DNA of 39,796 nt. Source: a virus. Below the pieces are notes generated by a model. It saw only the letters and a program-made list of their open reading frames with translations. It was not told where the DNA came from and made no database searches. Where the stretch lies: positions 1 through 39,796 of the IMG/VR virus record IMGVR_UViG_3300025141_000259, one strand, 5' to 3'. The translations under genes and the position numbers were made by a program. Shown here piece by piece: positions 11,028 through 39,081 of this stretch (positions are counted from its first letter, which is position 1; every line of letters starts with the position of its first letter).

Positions 11028-12890
11028 ATGCCATCAAGTGAAAAAATTATAAGTCCTGGTGTATTTACGAATGAAATAGACCAGACATTCTTACCGGCAG
11101 CAATTGGTGAAATAGGAGCTGCGTTAATAGGACCAACAGTAAAGGGTCCAGCTGGAATACCGACAGTAGTTACATCATATTCTGAATATCAAGCGTTATT
11201 CGGAGATACATTCAAAAGTGGTTCAAGTTATTATCAATATTTAACATCACACACAGCAAGAGAATATTTAAAATATGCAGGTAAAATGACTGTCGTCAGG
11301 ATATTAGCCAATGGTGGTGGATCTGTCGCAAAAGCAAGTTCATTTGTTCCAACAGGGAGTGGAAATTATTATACTGGTAGTACTACGGGTACACTTTTTA
11401 ATTCAGCTATGAGTTCATTTAAACTTCATACTCTATCAGATGGTGCATTGATGAATAATACTACTGGTTCTGGTGGATATGAAGGTTGTTGTATTGGAAC
11501 AAATAACATTTTAACAAATTCTGGTTCAAAAGATAATGTTCGTTGGGAAATTTCAACCGTTAACCAAAATAAAGGAACATTCACACTTCTTATTAGACGA
11601 GGTGATGATTCTCATAAAAGAAAAACAACATTAGAAACTTGGAATAATCTAACACTTGATCCCAATTCAAGTAATTACATTGAAAAAATAATTGGAAATC
11701 AAGTTTGGACACTTAATGATTCTGGTGGAACAGATCCATATCTTTCATTAACTGGTGATTATCCAAACAAATCAAAATATGTGAGGGTTGAAATACTAAA
11801 ACAAACTGCAGATTATTTAGATGAGAACGGAAATATTAGAGTTAACGCAGCTTCTGCTTCACTTCCTAGTATTAATAGCGGTTCATTTACAGGTGGTTCA
11901 GTAGGACACGCAGGATTTGATGCACTTGGTAATTTTGTTGGAGATAGTGGCGCTTCTCCTCAAGCAGTATTCTATGATAACATAGAATCGTCCAATGTAC
12001 AAGGATTTGATTTAGACGCAGCTACTGATGGTCAAACTGCTTACGAAGATGCAATTAATATTTTAGGAAATCAAGATGAATATGATATTAATTTAGTTCT
12101 GATGCCCGGTGTAACAGATGATTCGTCAGGTGCCGGTTCTGCACTTATAACAAAAGCAATAGATATGTGTGAAGACAGAGGTGATTGTTTTGTTGTTGCC
12201 GACCCAGGTCTTTATGGTCAAGCACTCACAACAGCAACAGCTAAGGCCGAAGCTCGTGATTCAAATTATTCAGCTATGTATTATCCCTGGATTCAAATAG
12301 CAGACGCTGACTTAGGAACAAATAGATGGGTACCACCATCAGTTGTGTTAGCTGGAGTTTATGCATTCAACGATAAAGTTGCACATCCATGGTTCGCACC
12401 AGCTGGTTTAAATCGTGGTGGAATTGATATGGCCATTCAAGCTGAACGAAAATTAACACATTCAAATAGAGATACATTGTATGATTCAAATGTTAATCCA
12501 ATTGCAACATTCCCAGGACAAGGTGTTACTGTATGGGGTCAAAAGACTTTACAGAAGAAAGCATCAGCACTTGATAGGATTAATGTACGAAGGTTGTTAA
12601 TCAAAGTTAAGAAGTTTATTGCATCATCTTCAAGATTCCTTGTATTCGAACAAAACAATGCGGCTACAAGACGAAGATTCTTGAATATCGTTAATCCGTT
12701 CTTAGAACAAGTTCAAGCCAACTCAGGATTAAATGCATTCCGTGTCGTTATGGATGAAACAAATAATACTCCAGATGTTGTAGATAGAAATGTATTATAC
12801 GGACAGATATTTGTTCAACCTACAAGAACTGCAGAATTTATTGTTTTAGATTTCACAGTTCAACCAACTGGAGCTACATTTCCAGAGTAA
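11028..12890 (+). CDS. 18: Tail sheath protein, copy 1 (gp18-like)
   Basis: This 620-residue contractile sheath subunit opens with KIISPGVFTNEIDQTF, then GEIGAALIGPTVKGPAGIPT, the classic sheath N-terminus that hooks adjacent subunits. The C-terminal third (AWFAPAG-type region around residue 465, GVTVWGQKTLQKK, NVRRLLIKVKKFI, IFVQPTRTAEFIVLDFTVQPTGATFPE region) is the conserved sheath core. GGAG lies before the ATG. It is paired in tandem with a longer paralogue downstream, and the C-terminal ~330 residues of the two are nearly identical in protein sequence. Confidence 0.95.
   Translation: MPSSEKIISPGVFTNEIDQTFLPAAIGEIGAALIGPTVKGPAGIPTVVTSYSEYQALFGDTFKSGSSYYQYLTSHTAREYLKYAGKMTVVRILANGGGSVAKASSFVPTGSGNYYTGSTTGTLFNSAMSSFKLHTLSDGALMNNTTGSGGYEGCCIGTNNILTNSGSKDNVRWEISTVNQNKGTFTLLIRRGDDSHKRKTTLETWNNLTLDPNSSNYIEKIIGNQVWTLNDSGGTDPYLSLTGDYPNKSKYVRVEILKQTADYLDENGNIRVNAASASLPSINSGSFTGGSVGHAGFDALGNFVGDSGASPQAVFYDNIESSNVQGFDLDAATDGQTAYEDAINILGNQDEYDINLVLMPGVTDDSSGAGSALITKAIDMCEDRGDCFVVADPGLYGQALTTATAKAEARDSNYSAMYYPWIQIADADLGTNRWVPPSVVLAGVYAFNDKVAHPWFAPAGLNRGGIDMAIQAERKLTHSNRDTLYDSNVNPIATFPGQGVTVWGQKTLQKKASALDRINVRRLLIKVKKFIASSSRFLVFEQNNAATRRRFLNIVNPFLEQVQANSGLNAFRVVMDETNNTPDVVDRNVLYGQIFVQPTRTAEFIVLDFTVQPTGATFPE
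11040..11181 (+). repeat. Near-identical 5' segment shared with the second sheath gene (copy at 12953-13094)
   Basis: About 142 bases match the corresponding segment of the downstream sheath gene with only four mismatches that I can find, including at third codon positions. Immediately afterwards the two genes diverge at synonymous sites while still encoding similar protein. This pattern suggests recent gene conversion. Confidence 0.85.
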
Positions 12891-12905
12891 CATAAAATAA
12901 ATAAC

Positions 12906-12927
12906 GAGGGTCATTAATTTGACCCTC
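12906..12927 (+). terminator. Hairpin between the two sheath genes
   Basis: GAGGGTCA and TGACCCTC form a perfect 8-bp stem with a 6-base loop. There is no real T tract after it (TTATTAATC), so it may be a partial terminator, an attenuator or an mRNA processing/stability element that sets the ratio of the two sheath products. Confidence 0.6.
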
Positions 12928-12947
12928 TTATTAATCGGAGAAACATA

Positions 12948-15194
12948 ATGGCAGAAAAGATTATAAGTCCTGGTGTATTTACGAATGAAATAGACCAGAC
13001 ATTTTTACCATCAGCAATTGGTGAAATAGGAGCTGCGTTAATAGGACCAACAGTAAAGGGTCCAGCTGGAATACCGACAGTAGTTACATCATATTCAGAG
13101 TTTCAAGCAAGATTTGGTGATACTTTCAAGAGTGGAAGTGATTATTATCAATATTTTACATCACATACAGCAAGAGAATATTTGAAACATGGTTCAAAAT
13201 TGACTGTTGTTAGAATACTTGATGGTAGTTATGGTGGAGCATCTGCTACAATTTCATCATCAGTAGATCCAGCAATTGTAGGTGGTGGAAATAAACATAC
13301 TGCAAGTTTGACTATAGCTGGTCCAATATTATCAGCTTCCTTTATTGGTTCTCATGGATCTGCTTCATTTACACCAACTGGTGGTAGTGAAGTTAAATTT
13401 GTATTTACAGGTTCCATTAATAGGAGTGGTCTATTAACAGATTCAGCAACTTTAATATATGTAGATTCTGGTTCTGGTGTTGGTGCAGCTGCATTGACTA
13501 ACGCCGCTTTAAATTTAAAAAACGCCATTAATATCAGTAGTTCGTTACATAATTTACCAATAAGTGCTAGTTCAGATGTTAATGTAGTTGGACTTACATC
13601 AAGTATAGCTGGAAATTTTGGTGTTTATACAAGTCCAACTCAAGGTGTTACACCAGCACCTGTGTTCGGTGGTTCACAAGCAGTTGGTAATTTTGTAGAA
13701 ATAGCTGGACATTCAGGATCTATGACATCTAAAAGTTTAGGGGGTGGTCATGATTTTAATACTGATACATTTAAAGAATCTTTTAAATTACATACATTAT
13801 CAGATGGAGAGATATTAAATAGTGTTGGTCCAATAGGAACAAATAATGTATTAGAATCAGGTTCAAAAGATAATTTAAGATGGGAAATAGGAAGTCTTAA
13901 TCAAAAGAAAGGAACATTTACACTCCTTCTCAGACGAGGTGATGATAGTTCTAAAAGAAAACAAACTCTTGAAACTTGGAACAACCTTACTTTAGATGAA
14001 AATTCAACTAATTATATCTCTAAAGTAATCGGTGACCAAGTTTGGACACTTAACGATTCTGGTGGAACAGATCCATATCTTTCACTAGCTGGTGATTATC
14101 CAAACAAATCAAAATATGTAAGAGTTGAAGTTATAGAACAAACTGTAGATTATCTTGATGAAAATGGTAATATTAGAGTCAATGTAGCTTCTGCTTCATT
14201 ACCATTATTCCATAGCGGTTCAAATAGTGGTTCATTTGGTGGTTCATTTAGTGGTGGTTCTGATGGAACAGTTCAACATCCGAAGAATTTTTATGATTCT
14301 ATAACTGATTCTAATTCACAAGGTCTTATTCTGACTAGTGCTACAGAATATGAAGATGCAATTAATATTTTAGGAAATCAAGATGAATATGATATAAATC
14401 TTGTATTATTACCTGGAGTTATAGATAATCAAACAGGTGGTAGTTCTATTATAACAAAAGCAATAGATATGTGCGAAGACAGAGGTGATTGTTTTGTTAT
14501 ATCTGATCCAACTTTATATTCAGCAGCACTCACAACAGCAACAACAGAAGCTAAAACAAGAGATTCTAACTACGCAGCTACTTACTGGCCCTGGGTTCAG
14601 ATATCAGATGCTGATTTAGGAAGAAATCGATGGGTACCACCATCAGTTGTAGTTGCTGGAATGTATGCGTTTAACGACAAAGTAGCTCATGAGTGGTTTG
14701 CTCCAGCCGGTCTGAATAGAGGAACATTGGATAGTGTAGTTCAAGCTGAACGTAAATTAAGTCATTCAAATAGAGATACCTTGTATGATTCAAATGTCAA
14801 TCCAATTGCAACATTTCCTACCTCTGGTGTTACTGTTTGGGGTCAAAAGACACTTCAAAAGAAATCTTCAGCTCTCGACAGGGTGAATGTAAGACGATTG
14901 TTGATTAAGGTGAAGAAATTTATCGCATCAAGTTCAAGATTCCTTGTATTTGAACAAAACAATGCAAGTACAAGACGAAGATTCTTGAATATTGTAAATC
15001 CGTTCTTGGAACAAGTTCAATCTAACTCAGGCTTAAATGCATTCCGCGTTGTAATGGATGAATCAAATAACACTCCAGATGTTGTAGATAGAAATGTCTT
15101 ATATGGGCAGATATTTGTTCAACCCACAAGAACAGCAGAGTTCATCGTTCTTGATTTCACAGTTCAACCAACTGGAGCTACATTTCCAGAATAA
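12948..15194 (+). CDS. 18: Tail sheath protein, copy 2, with enlarged surface domain (gp18-like)
   Basis: A 748-residue paralogue of the preceding gene. The N-terminal ~90 and the C-terminal ~450 residues align throughout. Between them, residues about 95-270 carry an additional Ser/Gly/Ala-rich, beta-type region largely missing from copy 1, which accounts for most of the 128-residue difference. In sheath proteins such insertions face outward. The variant could build a second class of ring, for example near the baseplate or neck, or decorate the sheath. It has its own GGAGA ribosome binding site, and no promoter box separates it from copy 1, so both are probably on one transcript with the hairpin between them. 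Confidence 0.94.
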   Translation: MAEKIISPGVFTNEIDQTFLPSAIGEIGAALIGPTVKGPAGIPTVVTSYSEFQARFGDTFKSGSDYYQYFTSHTAREYLKHGSKLTVVRILDGSYGGASATISSSVDPAIVGGGNKHTASLTIAGPILSASFIGSHGSASFTPTGGSEVKFVFTGSINRSGLLTDSATLIYVDSGSGVGAAALTNAALNLKNAINISSSLHNLPISASSDVNVVGLTSSIAGNFGVYTSPTQGVTPAPVFGGSQAVGNFVEIAGHSGSMTSKSLGGGHDFNTDTFKESFKLHTLSDGEILNSVGPIGTNNVLESGSKDNLRWEIGSLNQKKGTFTLLLRRGDDSSKRKQTLETWNNLTLDENSTNYISKVIGDQVWTLNDSGGTDPYLSLAGDYPNKSKYVRVEVIEQTVDYLDENGNIRVNVASASLPLFHSGSNSGSFGGSFSGGSDGTVQHPKNFYDSITDSNSQGLILTSATEYEDAINILGNQDEYDINLVLLPGVIDNQTGGSSIITKAIDMCEDRGDCFVISDPTLYSAALTTATTEAKTRDSNYAATYWPWVQISDADLGRNRWVPPSVVVAGMYAFNDKVAHEWFAPAGLNRGTLDSVVQAERKLSHSNRDTLYDSNVNPIATFPTSGVTVWGQKTLQKKSSALDRVNVRRLLIKVKKFIASSSRFLVFEQNNASTRRRFLNIVNPFLEQVQSNSGLNAFRVVMDESNNTPDVVDRNVLYGQIFVQPTRTAEFIVLDFTVQPTGATFPE

Positions 15195-19667: not shown

Positions 19668-21563
19668 TTGAGTTTAATAAACTTAAAAAGTATATTTACT
19701 GAAAATATTGATTCCCTCGCGAATGATTTTATTGATGGTGCACCAACTCCTGTAGAATCTATTGTTGTCAACATGAGTAGTACATACACAGATGGAATAG
19801 GTGGATTATTTAATAAATCAACCGTTTATGTATCTTCAAAGTTCACTCCAATGTCATCATTAAATGTACCATCAATTGAACAAATATTAACATCAGGAAA
19901 TATTGGAGATGGTATAACTGGTGGAGATGGTTACCCAATACAACTGTCCTCATATACTAATTTAATTATCCCTCCGCCTGAACCGGGTAACGGAATCAGT
20001 TTTAAAGCTGCTGGTGAAGACTTAGCTGCAGTTACTACACAACCTGTAGATGGTTTTAGAAAATTGTTATCACTAGTGACAGAAGATAGAAAATTCCCAA
20101 ATGACACATCTTGGAGTAATTTATACAGAGCCGACCATAAATCTAAAGGTGTTGATGGCCCACAGTATTCTTACGGCTCAAATGTTAATTTGCAATTTGG
20201 TATTAGAGATGAAGCTCCTAATATAACAGGAATTTCAAGAACACAATTATTTGGTGGACCACATGGTGAACCATATATCGTAAGTGGACTACCGGATGGT
20301 GATATTGGTGGACTTGGTGGACTCGGTGACGGTAGATTACAGAATTTTGCGAGTCGTTCTATCCCAATAGTCAGAGCAGTAACTGATACTGTAAGATTAA
20401 CAAAGTATTTAACATCTCCAGATGGTATTGCCTTTATAGCTAAACAAAATGCTTTAGGTGCTGTTACAAAGGTTCAATTCAGAGATGGTGATAAATTGAT
20501 GGAAGGAAAACAAAGATTTAAAGAAGGTTATAATCCATTGAGTACTTTAGGAGCTTCAGTATCACGATTAACCGGAACAACACCAAATATTTTATTTGAC
20601 AGAGAAGAACCTGGTTTGAGTTCATTGTTTGGTAGGGATAGATATGGTAGTGTTGGACTGGGGCCCCTGCGTGAAAATGTTGAATATATATTAGATTCAA
20701 CATTTACAGATGGTTCATCAGATTCAGTTGCCGGGTCTCTTTTTGGTCAATTTACTAATAAAATTAGATCAGCAATGAGTACTGCACTTGGGAGAGATGT
20801 AGAAATAAAACCAAAATCAGAGGGTGGTGACAAAATGACTTTGGCAACTATGATAAGAGGTACTTCATTAGAACCTATAGGCGTTCTAACAACAGGACTT
20901 GGTCATGGTAAACCAAACCAACTTTCATTTAATGTTGAAAAAGAACAAGAAGGAATGCCTTTCTACTTTAAAGATTTAAGAGATGACACCTACATATTTT
21001 TCAGAGCATACATAGACGGACTAACAGAAAATATATCACCATCTTGGGCATCAACAAATTATTTAGGAAGAAGTGAACCAGTTTATGTATATGAAAGGTC
21101 AGAAAGAGATATATCATTCAACCTTAAATTATTCGCACAGACAGAAGATGAGTTAACTTCAATATATCAAAAAATGAATAGACTTACATCATTGTGTTAT
21201 CCAGAATACGCTAAGAATACAGTAGGTTCAACTACATCTGAAACCGGTGGAACTGTATTTGCATCCAACGCTATGCAAAGAATGAAACCACCATTAACAA
21301 AATTTAGATTAGGTGAATTATTTGGTAGTGAACATGCTGAACTGACTGGATTTATAAAAAGTCTTTCATACTCATATCCATCAGAATCACCTTGGGAAAC
21401 TAAAGCAGGAAAACGAGTTCCCAAATATGTTCAAGTTGCAATATCATATCAAGTGATTCATATGACAGTTCCAAGTCTTGATTTTGCGAAGACGGATCCA
21501 GGTGGTAAATATAAAGATGAAACATTCTATGGAACAAATAAAGTTACAGGTATGGGAGTTTAG
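19668..21563 (+). CDS. Tail tube cap / baseplate protein (gp48/gp54-like, tentative)
   Basis: This 631-residue protein starts at TTG 19668, with GGAGAGA about 5 bases upstream and no ATG nearby. The N-terminal 300 residues are Gly/Ser-rich and unrecognised. The C-terminal part (residues about 425-600) has a baseplate pattern: FKDLRDDTYIFFRAYIDGL, ENISPSWASTNYLGRSEPVY, then DISFNLKLFAQTEDELTSIY and PPLTKFRLGELFGSEHAELT. I know this layout from proteins located between tape measure and LysM genes in other myoviruses. T4 places gp48 and gp54 here, where they cap the hub and start tube growth. The exact equivalent is not certain. Confidence 0.6.
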   Translation: MSLINLKSIFTENIDSLANDFIDGAPTPVESIVVNMSSTYTDGIGGLFNKSTVYVSSKFTPMSSLNVPSIEQILTSGNIGDGITGGDGYPIQLSSYTNLIIPPPEPGNGISFKAAGEDLAAVTTQPVDGFRKLLSLVTEDRKFPNDTSWSNLYRADHKSKGVDGPQYSYGSNVNLQFGIRDEAPNITGISRTQLFGGPHGEPYIVSGLPDGDIGGLGGLGDGRLQNFASRSIPIVRAVTDTVRLTKYLTSPDGIAFIAKQNALGAVTKVQFRDGDKLMEGKQRFKEGYNPLSTLGASVSRLTGTTPNILFDREEPGLSSLFGRDRYGSVGLGPLRENVEYILDSTFTDGSSDSVAGSLFGQFTNKIRSAMSTALGRDVEIKPKSEGGDKMTLATMIRGTSLEPIGVLTTGLGHGKPNQLSFNVEKEQEGMPFYFKDLRDDTYIFFRAYIDGLTENISPSWASTNYLGRSEPVYVYERSERDISFNLKLFAQTEDELTSIYQKMNRLTSLCYPEYAKNTVGSTTSETGGTVFASNAMQRMKPPLTKFRLGELFGSEHAELTGFIKSLSYSYPSESPWETKAGKRVPKYVQVAISYQVIHMTVPSLDFAKTDPGGKYKDETFYGTNKVTGMGV

Positions 21564-29316: not shown

Positions 29317-29334
29317 TATTAGGAGAAAATGGTT

Positions 29335-30078
29335 ATGGCAAAAACAAAAGAAGAAAACCTTCAAGTAGCAGAAGAAACAGAAGAATTATCACCCTTATAT
29401 TATTTCTATTCAGTAGGATGTGGTTGGTGTAAAAAAACAGGACCAATTGTTGATGAATTGATTGATGAAGGACACGATATTCTTAAACTTGATTTATCAG
29501 ACTCCGAAAATAAAAAGATTAATGAAGAACTTAAAAAAGAATATAAAGCACAATGTGGAACACCCTGGTTTATAAACGCCGATACTGGAAACCAGATATG
29601 CGGTTTCAGAGAAAAAGATATTCTTGAAAAGTGGGTAAACGGTGAAGATATCCCTGCACCACCAAGACCAACTGGTCCAATGCCAAAACCACCATTTCAT
29701 GGAGCAACTGGTAAAGAAGAAACAAACTGGAAAAAAGAATATAAGAAATGGACAAAAGAAAATTCACATCTTCCAAACTTACAGCCAGCTGACCAAATCC
29801 TTGAAAGACCAAGACCAAAATCAGAACCACCTAAACCACCCCCACCACAAGCAACTGATACTGAATTAGAAACTTGGAGTAAAGAATATGACAAATGGAA
29901 AGACGAAAATTCACACTTACCCAATCTACAACCAACAAATATGATTATTGAAAATTTCAAGAAAAGACGACAAGGTACTCAACAACCACCAGTCCAAAAT
30001 CAACAAGGTTTAGAACAACGAATTGGAACACTTGAACAAAAACTTGATAGGTTAATGGCTCATTTGGGAGTGAAGTAA
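29335..30078 (+). CDS. Thioredoxin-fold protein with duplicated proline-rich linker and coiled-coil tail
   Basis: This 247-residue protein has an N-terminal thioredoxin/glutaredoxin fold (residues about 18-105) with the redox pair CGWC (Cys29, Cys32) after a YFYSVG strand and a likely cis-proline in QCGTPWFI. Residues about 110-205 hold two related units (NWKKEYKKWTKENSHLPNLQ and TWSKEYDKWKDENSHLPNLQ) separated by Pro-rich spacers. The last 25 residues (LEQRIGTLEQKLDRLMAHLG) are a short coiled coil that could oligomerise. ATG 29335 is preferred over 29329 because AGGAGA then lies 8 bases upstream. It heads an operon with a Cys-rich protein and the TGA-containing thioredoxin. Likely substrates include the phage RNR or virion disulfides (inference). 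Confidence 0.8.
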   Translation: MAKTKEENLQVAEETEELSPLYYFYSVGCGWCKKTGPIVDELIDEGHDILKLDLSDSENKKINEELKKEYKAQCGTPWFINADTGNQICGFREKDILEKWVNGEDIPAPPRPTGPMPKPPFHGATGKEETNWKKEYKKWTKENSHLPNLQPADQILERPRPKSEPPKPPPPQATDTELETWSKEYDKWKDENSHLPNLQPTNMIIENFKKRRQGTQQPPVQNQQGLEQRIGTLEQKLDRLMAHLGVK

Positions 30079-30080
30079 AA

Positions 30081-30497
30081 TTGGCTAGATTCAAACCCAA
30101 AGTTACAAAAGACAGAAGAGCTACTGAACAAGAATTGGAATGTATTTATAAAACTGAAAAGATGTTAGTGGAAGAACAAAAACTTCCTCCAGCATCTCAG
30201 ATGGTTCGTGATATAGCTACAACTCATTGGAAATCTCTCAAGTCTTGGCTAAAAGGTTCACAGGTAATCACAACACAGGAAGAAGCTGAACGAAGATGGG
30301 AAATCTGTAAAGGTTGTCCATTTCTTCTCTATGATGAAACCAATCCAGATACGAATAAAAAAGATGGTAGATGTTCTCATTGTGCATGTTTTATGAATGT
30401 AAAAGTACATTATGCGGTGGCTGAATGTCCTATAGATAAATGGAAAAAACATTGTGGTTGTAATTGTGATTGTGAACATGGAGATTGTGATGAATAA
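30081..30497 (+). CDS. Cysteine-rich, probably zinc-binding protein (DUF6171-like)
   Basis: A 138-residue protein starting at TTG 30081, 2 bases after the previous stop, with GGAG about 10 bases upstream. It contains ICKGCPFLL (about 76-84) and GRCSHCACFMNVKVHY, then AECPIDKW, a four-cysteine cluster with the layout of DUF6171-type proteins. It ends in an unusual Cys-rich tail, CGCNCDCEHGDC. The pattern suggests metal binding. It is placed between two thioredoxin-fold genes, and its stop overlaps the start of the second (ATGAATAA). Confidence 0.75.
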   Translation: MARFKPKVTKDRRATEQELECIYKTEKMLVEEQKLPPASQMVRDIATTHWKSLKSWLKGSQVITTQEEAERRWEICKGCPFLLYDETNPDTNKKDGRCSHCACFMNVKVHYAVAECPIDKWKKHCGCNCDCEHGDCDE

Positions 30498-30825
30498 TTT
30501 AACAAAAACAGAATTTATGAAAATCTATAATGAGGGAGAAAATCTTACAGATAAACCCATATTTATTAGTTTTTATGCAACTTGGTGAGGACCTTGTAAA
30601 ATGTACGAGCGGTCGCTCAACGAAGTTACACCAGAATACAAAGATAAGATAAATTTATATAAAGTAAACATAGAAGAAGAACTTGAAATGGCAGGTTTAT
30701 TTAAAGTAATGAGTGTTCCTACAACTGCAACAATTTCAAAAAGTGGTGATGTACAATCAATGCCAGGAGCTTTAAATGAAGAAACACTTAAATATTTTTT
30801 GGAAGGATTAATTTCAAAAAAATAA
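30490..30825 (+). CDS. Thioredoxin with in-frame TGA at the first active-site cysteine: probable selenoprotein
   Basis: Read through TGA 30586-30588, this frame gives a 111-residue thioredoxin: DKPIFISFYATW-U-GPCKMYER, then LYKVNIEEELEMAGLFKV, the cis-Pro loop SVPTTATI and a GALNEETLKYFLEGL end. It aligns with E. coli thioredoxin along its whole length, with TGA exactly at Cys32 of WCGPC. ATG 30490 overlaps the preceding gene (ATGAATAA). Neighbouring genes ending at 34004, 34630, 35985 and 39590 use TGA as a true stop, so TGA is not globally reassigned. A SECIS-like hairpin follows. The best reading is selenocysteine. Alternatives are a nonsense mutation or a base error (TGT or TGC to TGA). 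Translation from ATG 30601 alone would give a useless half-domain. Confidence 0.78.
30586..30618 (+). promoter_or_regulatory. SECIS-like element: UGA plus hairpin with GGUC apical loop
   Basis: GAGC (30607-30610) pairs with GCTC (30615-30618) around GGTC (30611-30614). The inner G-C can extend the stem to 5 bp. The loop begins 22 nt after the TGA. Known bacterial SECIS hairpins start the loop 16-37 nt after UGA and need a G among the first two loop bases, and E. coli fdhF carries GGUC in its loop. Flanking TGTAA and TTACA could close a lower stem. The codons here (CGG TCG CTC) are rare in this AT-rich genome, suggesting selection on RNA structure. Confidence 0.7.
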
Positions 30826-30946: not shown

Positions 30947-31714
30947 ATGGACTTAAATGCAATCAAATCAAAGCTAACGCAGTTACAATCAACAACCTCA
31001 ACATCAAACAACTTTTGGAAACCTGACCCAGGTAATCAAGTAGTTCGTATTGTACCTTACAAACATAATAAAGATAATCCATTTATTGAATTATACTTTC
31101 ATTATAATTTAGGTAACAATAAGACCTATATGTCACCTGTATCATTCGGCCGTCCTGACCCAGTTGAAGAGTTTGCAAACAAACTTAAATCAACTGGTAA
31201 TAAAGACGAATGGATTCAAGGTAAAAGACTTGAACCTAAAATGAGAACATTTGTTCCCGTTGTAGTTCGTGGTCGTGAAGATGAAGGTGTTAAGTTTTGG
31301 GGATTTGGTAAAACAGTTTATCAAGAATTGTTATCAGTAATCGCTGACCCTGATTATGGTGATATTACAGACCCAGTAAATGGTCGTGATATTGGTATTG
31401 AACGCCAAACACCAGCAGAAGCAGGAAATCAGTATGGTAAGACAACAGTTCGAGTTAAACCTAATCAAACTACAATTACAGACAATGATACTTTACTTAA
31501 AAGTATTTTTGAGGATCAACCCGATTTGACTGAATTGTACACAGAACCATCCTATGATGATCTCAAAGAAGCTCTTAGTAATTTTCTAAATCCATCAGAT
31601 GACACAACTGAAACATCAAGTGGTGTAGCAGCTACAACAACTCCAACAAAGAATGTTGCAACTAATACTACATCAAATGTCGGTGACGCATTTGACGATT
31701 TATTCAATAGCTAA
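30947..31714 (+). CDS. 32: Single-stranded DNA-binding protein (gp32-like)
   Basis: This 255-residue protein shows the layout of T4 gp32 (301 residues). There is a short N-terminal helix, then an OB-fold core from FWKPDPGNQVVRIVPYKHNK through FIELYFHYNLG, KFWGFGKTVYQELLSVIADP and RTFVPVVVRG. A flexible Thr/Ser-rich linker and an acidic C-terminal tail ending VGDAFDDLFNS would contact replication partners. The Cys/His zinc-binding residues of T4 gp32 are absent; there is no cysteine in the protein. AGGAGA lies before the ATG. It heads the replication and recombination block. Confidence 0.88.
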   Translation: MDLNAIKSKLTQLQSTTSTSNNFWKPDPGNQVVRIVPYKHNKDNPFIELYFHYNLGNNKTYMSPVSFGRPDPVEEFANKLKSTGNKDEWIQGKRLEPKMRTFVPVVVRGREDEGVKFWGFGKTVYQELLSVIADPDYGDITDPVNGRDIGIERQTPAEAGNQYGKTTVRVKPNQTTITDNDTLLKSIFEDQPDLTELYTEPSYDDLKEALSNFLNPSDDTTETSSGVAATTTPTKNVATNTTSNVGDAFDDLFNS

Positions 31715-35985: not shown

Positions 35986-36184
35986 TAATTGTAGCATATG
36001 TGATTCAGAATTAGAACCAGATAATGGTGATATAATAGGAAATTTTGGAATATCATCAGTTGGATTCTGTGTATGGTGTTTATCAAGTGTAACTGATATG
36101 GTGATACAATTGAATGGATTTAATGATATAGAAACATTAAAAGAGAGAATAGTTGAATTAGAAGAGGATTCAATGAATGAATAA
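35978..36184 (+). CDS. Small zinc-ribbon-like protein
   Basis: This 68-residue protein has two CxxC pairs (CSIC near residue 5 and CVWC near 32), consistent with one zinc site. An acidic helix ends it (ETLKERIVELEEDSMNE). ATG 35978 overlaps the helicase stop by 8 bases; a GTG three bases earlier is also in frame. It overlaps the next gene by 8 bases. Small CxxC proteins of this type are common in phage replication operons, and no specific function can be given. Confidence 0.65.
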   Translation: MIDNCSICDSELEPDNGDIIGNFGISSVGFCVWCLSSVTDMVIQLNGFNDIETLKERIVELEEDSMNE

Positions 36185-36971
36185 TCTTACTATAAAAGAG
36201 ATAGGTAAAGAATTAGCTATAGATTTGATACAAAGTACACACTACTCAAAAGTTATGCCAAGGTTAACAAAACATTATCTTGGGTGTTTTTTAGAAAATA
36301 AATTAGTGGGTGTTGTCACATTAGGTTGGGGTACTCAACCTAAAGGTACTATAAATAAGATGTTTCCTGGATTAGAGACTAAAGATTATTATGAAATTGG
36401 TAAAATGTGTATGTTAGATGAAATGCCTAAAAATTCAGAATCTCAAATGTTATCTAAGGTTGTAAAATGGATGAAGATAAATACATCAGATAGATTATTT
36501 CTTTACACTTGGGCTGATGGTATAGTTGGTAAAGCTGGATATGTGTATCAATCATTTAATTTTTTGTATGGTGGTTTTATTTGGACAGATATATATGTTA
36601 GTGATAAGGGTGAAAAAATTCATCCTCGTTCAGCTAGAACCTTATGTGAGGAAAATGCCAAAATGGTAGGCAAAGATAAGATTTTTTGGCTTACATATGA
36701 TTTTATGAAAAAGAAAGGAATAAAGAGAATAAAGGGTAAACAATTTAGATATATTTTACCTTTAAGTAGAAAAGCTAAAAAAATGTTAAACGATTCAAAT
36801 ATGGAGTGGAGTATAAAATACCCTAAAGATATAGATTTAGAATGGAAAGAATTAGTTGGTAAAGGAAAATATGAGATAATGAAAGAAGAACCAAAATTTA
36901 ATTTAGATGTAGTAGAATATAATATAAAAAATGTAAACCCAAATAGAACAATTAAACATGATTTTTTTTAA
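36177..36971 (+). CDS. Mom-like / GNAT-fold protein (putative DNA adenine modification)
   Basis: This 264-residue protein has an N-terminal region, DLIQSTHYSKVMPRLTKHYLG, then LVGVVTLGWGTQPKG, DYYEIGKMCMLDEMPKNSES and FLYTWADGIVGKAGYVYQSF. These follow the order of the Mom family (helix with HYS, beta strand with a Gly, acidic E-x-x-x-M/C strand, then GxxGxxYxxxxF), which is related to acetyltransferases. Mu Mom converts adenine to a carbamoylmethyl-type derivative that blocks restriction enzymes. A Lys/Arg-rich C-terminus (KKKGIKRIKGKQFRYILPL) could bind DNA. The gene has no ribosome binding site of its own beyond the overlapped upstream end (GAGGA). Other GNAT roles remain possible. Confidence 0.55.
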   Translation: MNNLTIKEIGKELAIDLIQSTHYSKVMPRLTKHYLGCFLENKLVGVVTLGWGTQPKGTINKMFPGLETKDYYEIGKMCMLDEMPKNSESQMLSKVVKWMKINTSDRLFLYTWADGIVGKAGYVYQSFNFLYGGFIWTDIYVSDKGEKIHPRSARTLCEENAKMVGKDKIFWLTYDFMKKKGIKRIKGKQFRYILPLSRKAKKMLNDSNMEWSIKYPKDIDLEWKELVGKGKYEIMKEEPKFNLDVVEYNIKNVNPNRTIKHDFF

Positions 36972-37062: not shown

Positions 37063-39081
37063 ATGACAGAATTTAAAAAATTCAGCCTGTCAGACAATTT
37101 CATAGACGGATATAAAAGAAAAAGAGCACCATTCGGTTTTAACGGATTGGGTGAACTTGTCTATATGAGAACATATTCTCGTCTAAAAGATGATGGAAAA
37201 AACGAAATGTGGTGGGAAACTGTTAAGCGTGTTGTAGAGGGAACTTACAACATGCAAAAGAAACATATTGAGAGATATGATTTAGGGTGGAACGCGTGGC
37301 AAGCACAAAGGTCAGCACAGGAGATGTATGACCGAATTTTCAATATGAAATTCTTACCACCCGGCCGAGGACTTTGGGCTATGGGAACATCAATAACCGA
37401 AGAACGAGGTTTGTACGCCGCCCTCAACAATTGTGCATTCGTATCAACACAAAATCTGAAAGATGATTTATCTAAACCATTTACATTCTTAATGGATGCA
37501 AGTATGGTTGGTGTTGGTGTTGGTTTTGATACAAAGGGTGCAGAATCGTTTGTTATAAGAGGACCCAAAACTGATAGAGGTATAGAAACATATGTAGTAC
37601 CAGATACTCGTGAAGGATGGGTTGAATCAGTACGAAGATTATTAGATTCATATTTTCTTGGTATAACTCCAGTTGAGTTTGATTACACACAGATTAGAGA
37701 AAAGGGAGCACCAATCAAAGGATTCGGTGGTGTGTCAAGTGGTTACGAACCATTAGAAGAAGTCCATAATACCGTTAGAGAAACATTAGATAAGAATGTA
37801 GGTGAACCAATTTCAATAACTACAATCGTTGACATTATGAATCTAATCGGTAAGTGTGTTGTAGCTGGTAATGTAAGACGAACTGCTGAAATAGTATTTG
37901 GTGATTCAACATCAGAAGAATACATCAATTTAAAGAATTATAAAAAGAACCCACATAGAGAAACATATGGTTGGACATCAAACAATTCTATATTTGCTGA
38001 GTTGGGTATGGATTATACAGAAACGGCTGAACGAATAAATGATAATGGTGAACCTGGTTTCGCGTGGTTAGATAATATGAGAGAATATTCTCGTATGAAA
38101 AATGGTGGGGATAATAAAGATCACAGAGTTGCTGGTGGTAATCCCTGTCTTGAACAATCACTTGAATCTTATGAGTTGTGTTGCTTGGTAGAAACATTTC
38201 CAAACAATCACGAGAGTTTAGAAGATTATATCAAGACATTGAAATACGCATATCTATATGCTAAAACAGTAACACTTGGAAAAACACATTGGTCTGAAAC
38301 AAATAGAGTGATGTTACGAAATAGAAGAATTGGAACATCAGTAAGTGGTGTGGCTCAATTCATTACAGACAAAGGATTACATCAATTAAGAGAATGGTTA
38401 GAAAGTGGATATGATGCAATTCAAGATTATGATAAAATGTATTCAGATTGGTTAGCAGTTCCTCGTTCAATCAAAACTACATCAGTTAAACCAAGTGGAA
38501 CTGTATCTCTATTAGCAGGAGCAACACCAGGATTACACTATCCTGAATCACGTTTCTATATCAGACGAATAAGATTATCAATTAATTCACCATTAATCAA
38601 ACCATTACAAAAAGCAGGTTACAACATAGAACCAGCTTTCGGTAGTGAAGATTCAACAGTAGTCGTAGATGTACCGGTTGATGTGGGTGAAGGTGTAAGA
38701 ACAATTAACGATGTATCAATGTGGGAACAAATGAGTTTAGCAGCATTCATGCAAAAGTATTGGGCAGATAACCAAGTAAGTTGTACTGTAACATTTGACC
38801 CTGATACAGAAGGACATCAGATAGCATCAGCACTTAACTATTTCCAATATCAGATGAAAGGTATATCATTCTTACCTAAAATGGAATTGGGTGCATACAA
38901 ACAAATGCCATACGAAGAAATCACAAATAAAAAATATGATAAGATGGTAAAAGAATTAAGTTTCTTATCATTCAGACAAGTCAAAGGGAACGAAGCAGAA
39001 GTTGAAAAGTTCTGTAACAATGACCATTGTGAAATTGACTTTGGTGAATTGGTAGAAGAAACACAGGAAGTGGGGGTTTAA
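37063..39081 (+). CDS. nrdJ: Class II (adenosylcobalamin-dependent) ribonucleoside-triphosphate reductase
   Basis: This 672-residue monomeric RNR is of the Lactobacillus leichmannii type (739 residues). The catalytic set is visible: Cys124 in ALNNCAFVST, the NPCLE motif with Asn360, Cys362 (thiyl radical) and Glu364, and Cys373 in YELCCL. The 11-residue spacing to the second redox cysteine matches the known enzyme. The C-terminal pair Cys651/Cys656 (CNNDHC) fits the swinging redox shuttle that a thioredoxin reduces. It makes deoxynucleotides using B12 and no oxygen or iron, unlike T4's NrdAB. GGAG precedes the ATG, and the stop overlaps the next start (TAATG). Confidence 0.94.
   Translation: MTEFKKFSLSDNFIDGYKRKRAPFGFNGLGELVYMRTYSRLKDDGKNEMWWETVKRVVEGTYNMQKKHIERYDLGWNAWQAQRSAQEMYDRIFNMKFLPPGRGLWAMGTSITEERGLYAALNNCAFVSTQNLKDDLSKPFTFLMDASMVGVGVGFDTKGAESFVIRGPKTDRGIETYVVPDTREGWVESVRRLLDSYFLGITPVEFDYTQIREKGAPIKGFGGVSSGYEPLEEVHNTVRETLDKNVGEPISITTIVDIMNLIGKCVVAGNVRRTAEIVFGDSTSEEYINLKNYKKNPHRETYGWTSNNSIFAELGMDYTETAERINDNGEPGFAWLDNMREYSRMKNGGDNKDHRVAGGNPCLEQSLESYELCCLVETFPNNHESLEDYIKTLKYAYLYAKTVTLGKTHWSETNRVMLRNRRIGTSVSGVAQFITDKGLHQLREWLESGYDAIQDYDKMYSDWLAVPRSIKTTSVKPSGTVSLLAGATPGLHYPESRFYIRRIRLSINSPLIKPLQKAGYNIEPAFGSEDSTVVVDVPVDVGEGVRTINDVSMWEQMSLAAFMQKYWADNQVSCTVTFDPDTEGHQIASALNYFQYQMKGISFLPKMELGAYKQMPYEEITNKKYDKMVKELSFLSFRQVKGNEAEVEKFCNNDHCEIDFGELVEETQEVGV

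Follow-up and report, generated by a model that had tools for sequence, protein, structure and literature searches.

A thioredoxin gene with an in-frame TGA in T4-like phages: a probable phage selenoprotein with a putative SECIS hairpin

We found that a marine T4-like phage lineage very probably encodes a selenoprotein, a thioredoxin with selenocysteine as its nucleophile (UGPC), whose UGA would be decoded by the SelB and tRNA-Sec of the host by way of a downstream hairpin. The earlier note on this DNA had proposed a probable selenoprotein, and the comparisons reported here support that reading: the TGA is conserved, orthologues with TGT occupy the same gene slot, and a SECIS-type hairpin, of which that note had made no mention, lies downstream; from these we infer the insertion of selenocysteine itself.

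The window, that is, the whole stretch of DNA that was analysed, is a 39.8-kb virus record (features in Table 1). As had been claimed, the genome is T4-like, with a gp23 capsid, a contractile tail sheath, gp32 and UvsX all present in the window; among named phages the nearest capsids, from Flavobacterium and Microcystis phages, are ~50% identical. Two tail sheath genes stand in tandem (window 11028-15194) and both are also found in the relatives G001 and G012, while a Mom-like DNA modification protein (PF25680, 1.8e-52; window 36177-36971) is a probable anti-restriction gene.

Table 1. Features of the window that bear on the predicted selenothioredoxin.
Feature	Position	Strand	Remarks
DUF6171-like gene (weak Pfam match, phrog_13558)	30081..30497	+	conserved upstream neighbour; 8-base overlap with thioredoxin start
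Thioredoxin gene, predicted selenothioredoxin	30490..30825	+	111 codons plus TAA stop; in-frame TGA
TGA codon 33	30586..30588	+	nucleophilic Cys position (first Cys of WCGPC; U in UGPC)
Resolving Cys, TGT codon 36	30595..30597	+	invariant
Putative SECIS apical hairpin GAGC-GGUC-GCUC	30607..30618	+	loop begins 22 nt after UGA
Pro77, cis-Pro of thioredoxin fold	30718..30720	+	invariant
gp32-like single-stranded DNA-binding protein	30947..31714	+	conserved downstream neighbour
Class II (adenosylcobalamin) ribonucleotide reductase, proposed thioredoxin client	37063..39081	+	TIGR02505 above cut-off

The TGA is the sole interruption of the thioredoxin frame, and it falls on the first Cys of WCGPC just as the earlier note had described. 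The further claim that thioredoxin-like sequence continues on both sides, including the cis-Pro, was equally borne out. When codon 33 was read through as cysteine, the protein matched PF00085 over residues 4-104 (2e-19), and its predicted structure is a thioredoxin (pLDDT 86.6, pTM 0.80); solved thioredoxins were also matched, the best being Bacteroides fragilis TrxP. Thus the product has the thioredoxin fold, the WCGPC site and the cis-Pro expected of the PF00085 family, with a match to TIGR01068 (NCBIfam) that lies below the cut-off of that model (76.2 vs 96.8 bits). The gene two places upstream (window 29329-30078) encodes another thioredoxin-like protein; it has a CGWC motif and is conserved in relatives.

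Relatives were gathered in searches with the protein, with a DNA pattern and with UvsX, a neighbouring gene. The search yielded homologues with TGA and with a Cys codon at the site, the two kinds that the earlier note had suggested looking for. The TGA stands at codon 33 in 20 of 20 phage contigs with the TGA-interrupted gene, the window counted; the 19 further contigs encode proteins that are 51-84% identical, and together the contigs are distinct sequences from several metagenomes. In five sister phages the same gene slot, between the DUF6171-like gene and gp32, holds a TGT (Cys) version with 53-57% identity to the protein of the window; in many relatives no thioredoxin was detectable. The in-frame UGA is therefore aligned with the redox Cys of Cys homologues (20 TGA, 5 TGT), the pattern by which bacterial selenoproteins are recognized. 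The thioredoxin tree was mostly unresolved and does not give the direction of the Sec/Cys change. In one relative (G003; L161 13200-13860, minus strand) the TGA thioredoxin is followed by a thioredoxin-like paralogue that lacks a CxxC motif and ends in a tail rich in proline and lysine, and then by a tRNA-Met gene.

Next to the TGA we examined the putative SECIS hairpin. In the window the stem GAGC/GCUC starts 18 nt past the UGA and is closed by the loop GGUC, while relatives have the stem (U)UGAGC/GCUCA(A) with loops AGGU or AGUU. The bacterial SECIS model (PMC13188914) calls for an apical loop of 3-9 nt, a stem of 4-16 bp and 16-37 nt from UGA to loop, with a G in the first two loop positions that is often followed by G or U. 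The phage hairpins have a 4-nt loop and a 4-6 bp stem in 18 of the 20 copies, all 18 sharing one register, a stem of 4 or more pairs without mismatch and a G in the first two loop positions (GGUC, AGGU, AGUU; AGUGU in L390); the UGA-to-loop spacing is 22 nt, or 21 in L390. The remaining two, L383 and L390, are the most divergent TGA copies: the former retains the hairpin, in which one internal pair is mismatched and one pair is compensated, and in the latter it is altered in both sequence and register (UUUAGU-AGUGU-ACUAGA, with a 5-nt loop and 6 or more bp).

The case for this hairpin rests on codon rarity, on synonymous freezing, on its geometry and on its presence with TGA but not with Cys. 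In the window it is written with the codons CGG, TCG and CTC, each of which makes up less than 5% of the codons for its amino acid, and of 12,331 stretches of five codons in other genes, just 2 have a score this low. The only other stretch of the window with codons rarer than those of the hairpin lies at 20652-20675. Synonymous divergence (pS), calculated with L383 and L390 left out, is 0.08 over codons 40-43 vs 0.49 over codons 45-110. Fifteen distinct TGA regions were recoded synonymously: the fold energy observed was reached by 0.9% of recodings for L383, by 4% for L390 and by at most 0.6% for each of the other 13. A scan of the Cys orthologues for G-loop hairpins found none, or weak ones (-1.3 to -1.9 kcal/mol) at 17 nt, though in one orthologue another part of the region folds at -5.2; the codons of the Cys orthologues are ordinary here. 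Nothing comparable came from 16 Cys thioredoxins that are more distantly related. The hairpin has the geometry of a bacterial SECIS and goes with TGA, not with Cys.

Other measures set limits to this case. No SECIS family was matched when the window and the gene were scanned against Rfam, and with the register held fixed the paired changes counted were neither strong nor decisive evidence. The isolated 30-nt hairpin region folds at -5.3 kcal/mol in the window and at -4.4 to -7.6 kcal/mol in relatives, in nearly all sequences weaker than the -7.5 kcal/mol or lower quoted for the model in the available text of PMC13188914, where the length of the folded stretch is unstated. The 56 nt from the UGA fold at -9.0 to -11.8 kcal/mol, mostly with other pairings preferred.

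A different decoding of the UGA would need no selenium: a suppressor tRNA or stimulated readthrough could insert cysteine or another standard amino acid. Cysteine would give a working enzyme, since the orthologues of the sister phages have Cys at the site; stimulated readthrough can employ a downstream stem-loop as well; and the Sec machinery was not seen on the phage contigs. Nevertheless, this explanation leaves unaccounted for why UGA is retained when a single base change would give the TGT of the sister phages, and neither the SECIS spacing nor the loop G would be expected from it, while a general UGA suppressor is argued against by the lack of any other in-frame TGA in 40,465 residues. 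We consider it unlikely. The conserved UGA together with the SECIS-type hairpin makes it very probable that this phage produces an enzyme containing selenium.

We also asked what would follow if the TGA were a true stop, leaving either a pseudogene or two separate products, a peptide of 32 aa and one of 74 aa restarted at ATG 30601. That 74-aa reading frame exists and its ATG is conserved, but the restarted fragment would be without the first strand and the catalytic site. Moreover, among the TGA copies purifying selection acts on both halves of the gene (pN/pS is 0.38 upstream of the TGA and 0.44 downstream), and the second half is intact in all other TGA copies, so that the decayed downstream half raised earlier as a sign against a selenoprotein was absent from these relatives. 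No copy has a stop other than TGA at this site, although 28 of the 37 genes in the genome end in TAA, and the Cys orthologues are uninterrupted. Accordingly, a true stop is very unlikely, and the selenoprotein reading is the one we follow below.

When the window proteins were aligned to 14 other TGA-bearing contigs, the 40,465 aligned residues contained no in-frame stop but the counterpart of this TGA, once per contig, which excludes general recoding; the earlier note had reached the same view from four neighbouring genes that end in TGA. Of the 37 genes in the window four have TGA as their normal stop, and beyond those stops the frames extend just 0-19 residues. Recurrence of the same TGA in 19 further phage contigs makes it more than chance, and by these comparisons it is not a sequencing error. 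Hence a sequencing or assembly error, conceivable while the window was one metagenomic contig, or a phage that reads every UGA as sense, has a negligible probability and is already contradicted by the relatives, given the same TGA in distinct contigs from several metagenomes on the one hand and the four TGA-terminated genes and otherwise uninterrupted alignments on the other.

Searches for selA/B/C/D and tRNA-Sec found none on the phage contigs, which are fragments, and without a phage tRNA-Sec there the decoding machinery would be supplied by the host. A weak tRNA-Sec match in G003 turned out to be an ordinary tRNA-Met. Among 245 Neomarinimicrobiota assemblies one, G190, has a related phage contig of 8.4 kb, with a capsid 59% identical and the same gene order, and it has a tRNA-Sec of its own (65.6 bits); tRNA-Sec scored above the cut-off in 150 of the 245 genomes. 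The same search gave one partial match alone, at 33%, in Planctomycetota (n=392) and no match in Bacteroidota (n=395). The Neomarinimicrobiota are thus the best candidate host, a link that is suggestive and consists of a single binned contig. With the phage thioredoxin profile, the Neomarinimicrobiota genomes gave many ordinary thioredoxins, and none among the matches listed had an in-frame TGA. The phage tRNA-Met is up to 89% identical to Neomarinimicrobiota tRNAs; because no control phylum was run, this likeness was dropped as evidence on the host. A scan of bacterial genomes with the WUGPC DNA pattern returned mainly Planctomycetota proteins; as none was a close homologue, we name no gene donor.

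Bacteria and marine metagenomes are known sources of Sec-containing thioredoxins (PMC1088965, PMC2398784), which confirms a statement of the earlier note. The phage gene resembles them (UxxC, PF00085; PMC1088965, PMC2398784, PMC13188914) in its family, in the Cys that is replaced and in having an in-frame UGA with a downstream stem-loop; in both cases Cys homologues are widespread. Unlike those cellular genes, this one is encoded by a T4-like phage, and the cellular WUGPC proteins that we retrieved are mostly longer, secreted, TlpA-like and from Planctomycetota, 36-57% identical over short stretches only. With the phage thioredoxins of phrog_22 (T4-type NrdC and others) it shares a small size and a genome that also encodes ribonucleotide reductase, whereas the phrog_22-type proteins compared have Cys (TGT/TGC) and lack a SECIS-type hairpin. 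A phage link to selenocysteine decoding also exists in Basilisk-like Bacillus phages (PMC6145125) and huge wastewater phages (PMC10747093), which carry tRNA-Sec genes; the available portions of these papers report the tRNA genes and no selenoprotein, the reverse of the present case, in which the contigs carry a probable selenoprotein gene but lack tRNA-Sec. In the literature searched we found no report of a phage selenoprotein; as coverage was incomplete, priority is not thereby proven. A survey that dealt with marine trace-element proteins had few or no viral sequences in families beyond those it singled out (PMC9402790). Gene callers truncate at UGA, so phage selenoproteins have probably been overlooked.

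Two further sets of genes came to light on other contigs. Virus contigs L082 4518, L103 8856, L110, L137 and L145 carry another family of likely phage selenoproteins, unrelated to the first. These are secreted redoxin-like proteins of ~360 aa that bear the motif SFATWUGPC and a dockerin-like domain, and whose C-terminal tail resembles a type IX secretion sorting domain, just below the cut-off of Pfam; in most of them a G-loop hairpin follows the TGA by 16-17 nt. Besides, a putatively viral 115.9-kb contig (L126 4789) encodes a lipoprotein-like thioredoxin with ATWUGPCKK, and its hairpin, UGAAAC-AGUU-GUUUCA at 22 nt after the TGA, has the spacing and one of the loops of the phage thioredoxin family.

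Finally, we considered what the enzyme may do. The product would be a small canonical thioredoxin with selenocysteine as nucleophile, made when the SelB and tRNA-Sec of the infected host decode the UGA under the direction of the hairpin inside the coding sequence. A selenothioredoxin is a thioredoxin with a more reactive nucleophile. Its main job could be to reduce the phage's own class II ribonucleotide reductase, which is B12-dependent and conserved in the relatives whose contigs extend that far; since class II ribonucleotide reductases receive electrons from thioredoxin, this enzyme seems the most likely client. More tentatively, and with somewhat less than even confidence, we picture a lytic marine phage lineage of Sec-using Neomarinimicrobiota that borrows the Sec machinery so as to supply its B12-dependent ribonucleotide reductase with a fast selenothioredoxin, exchanging Sec and Cys versions as hosts or selenium supply change. 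If the selenoprotein reading is right, a lytic phage would depend on the selenocysteine decoding of its host, an unusual host factor for phage growth, and a single gene slot with a natural set of Sec/Cys exchanges would offer a test of what selenium buys an enzyme.
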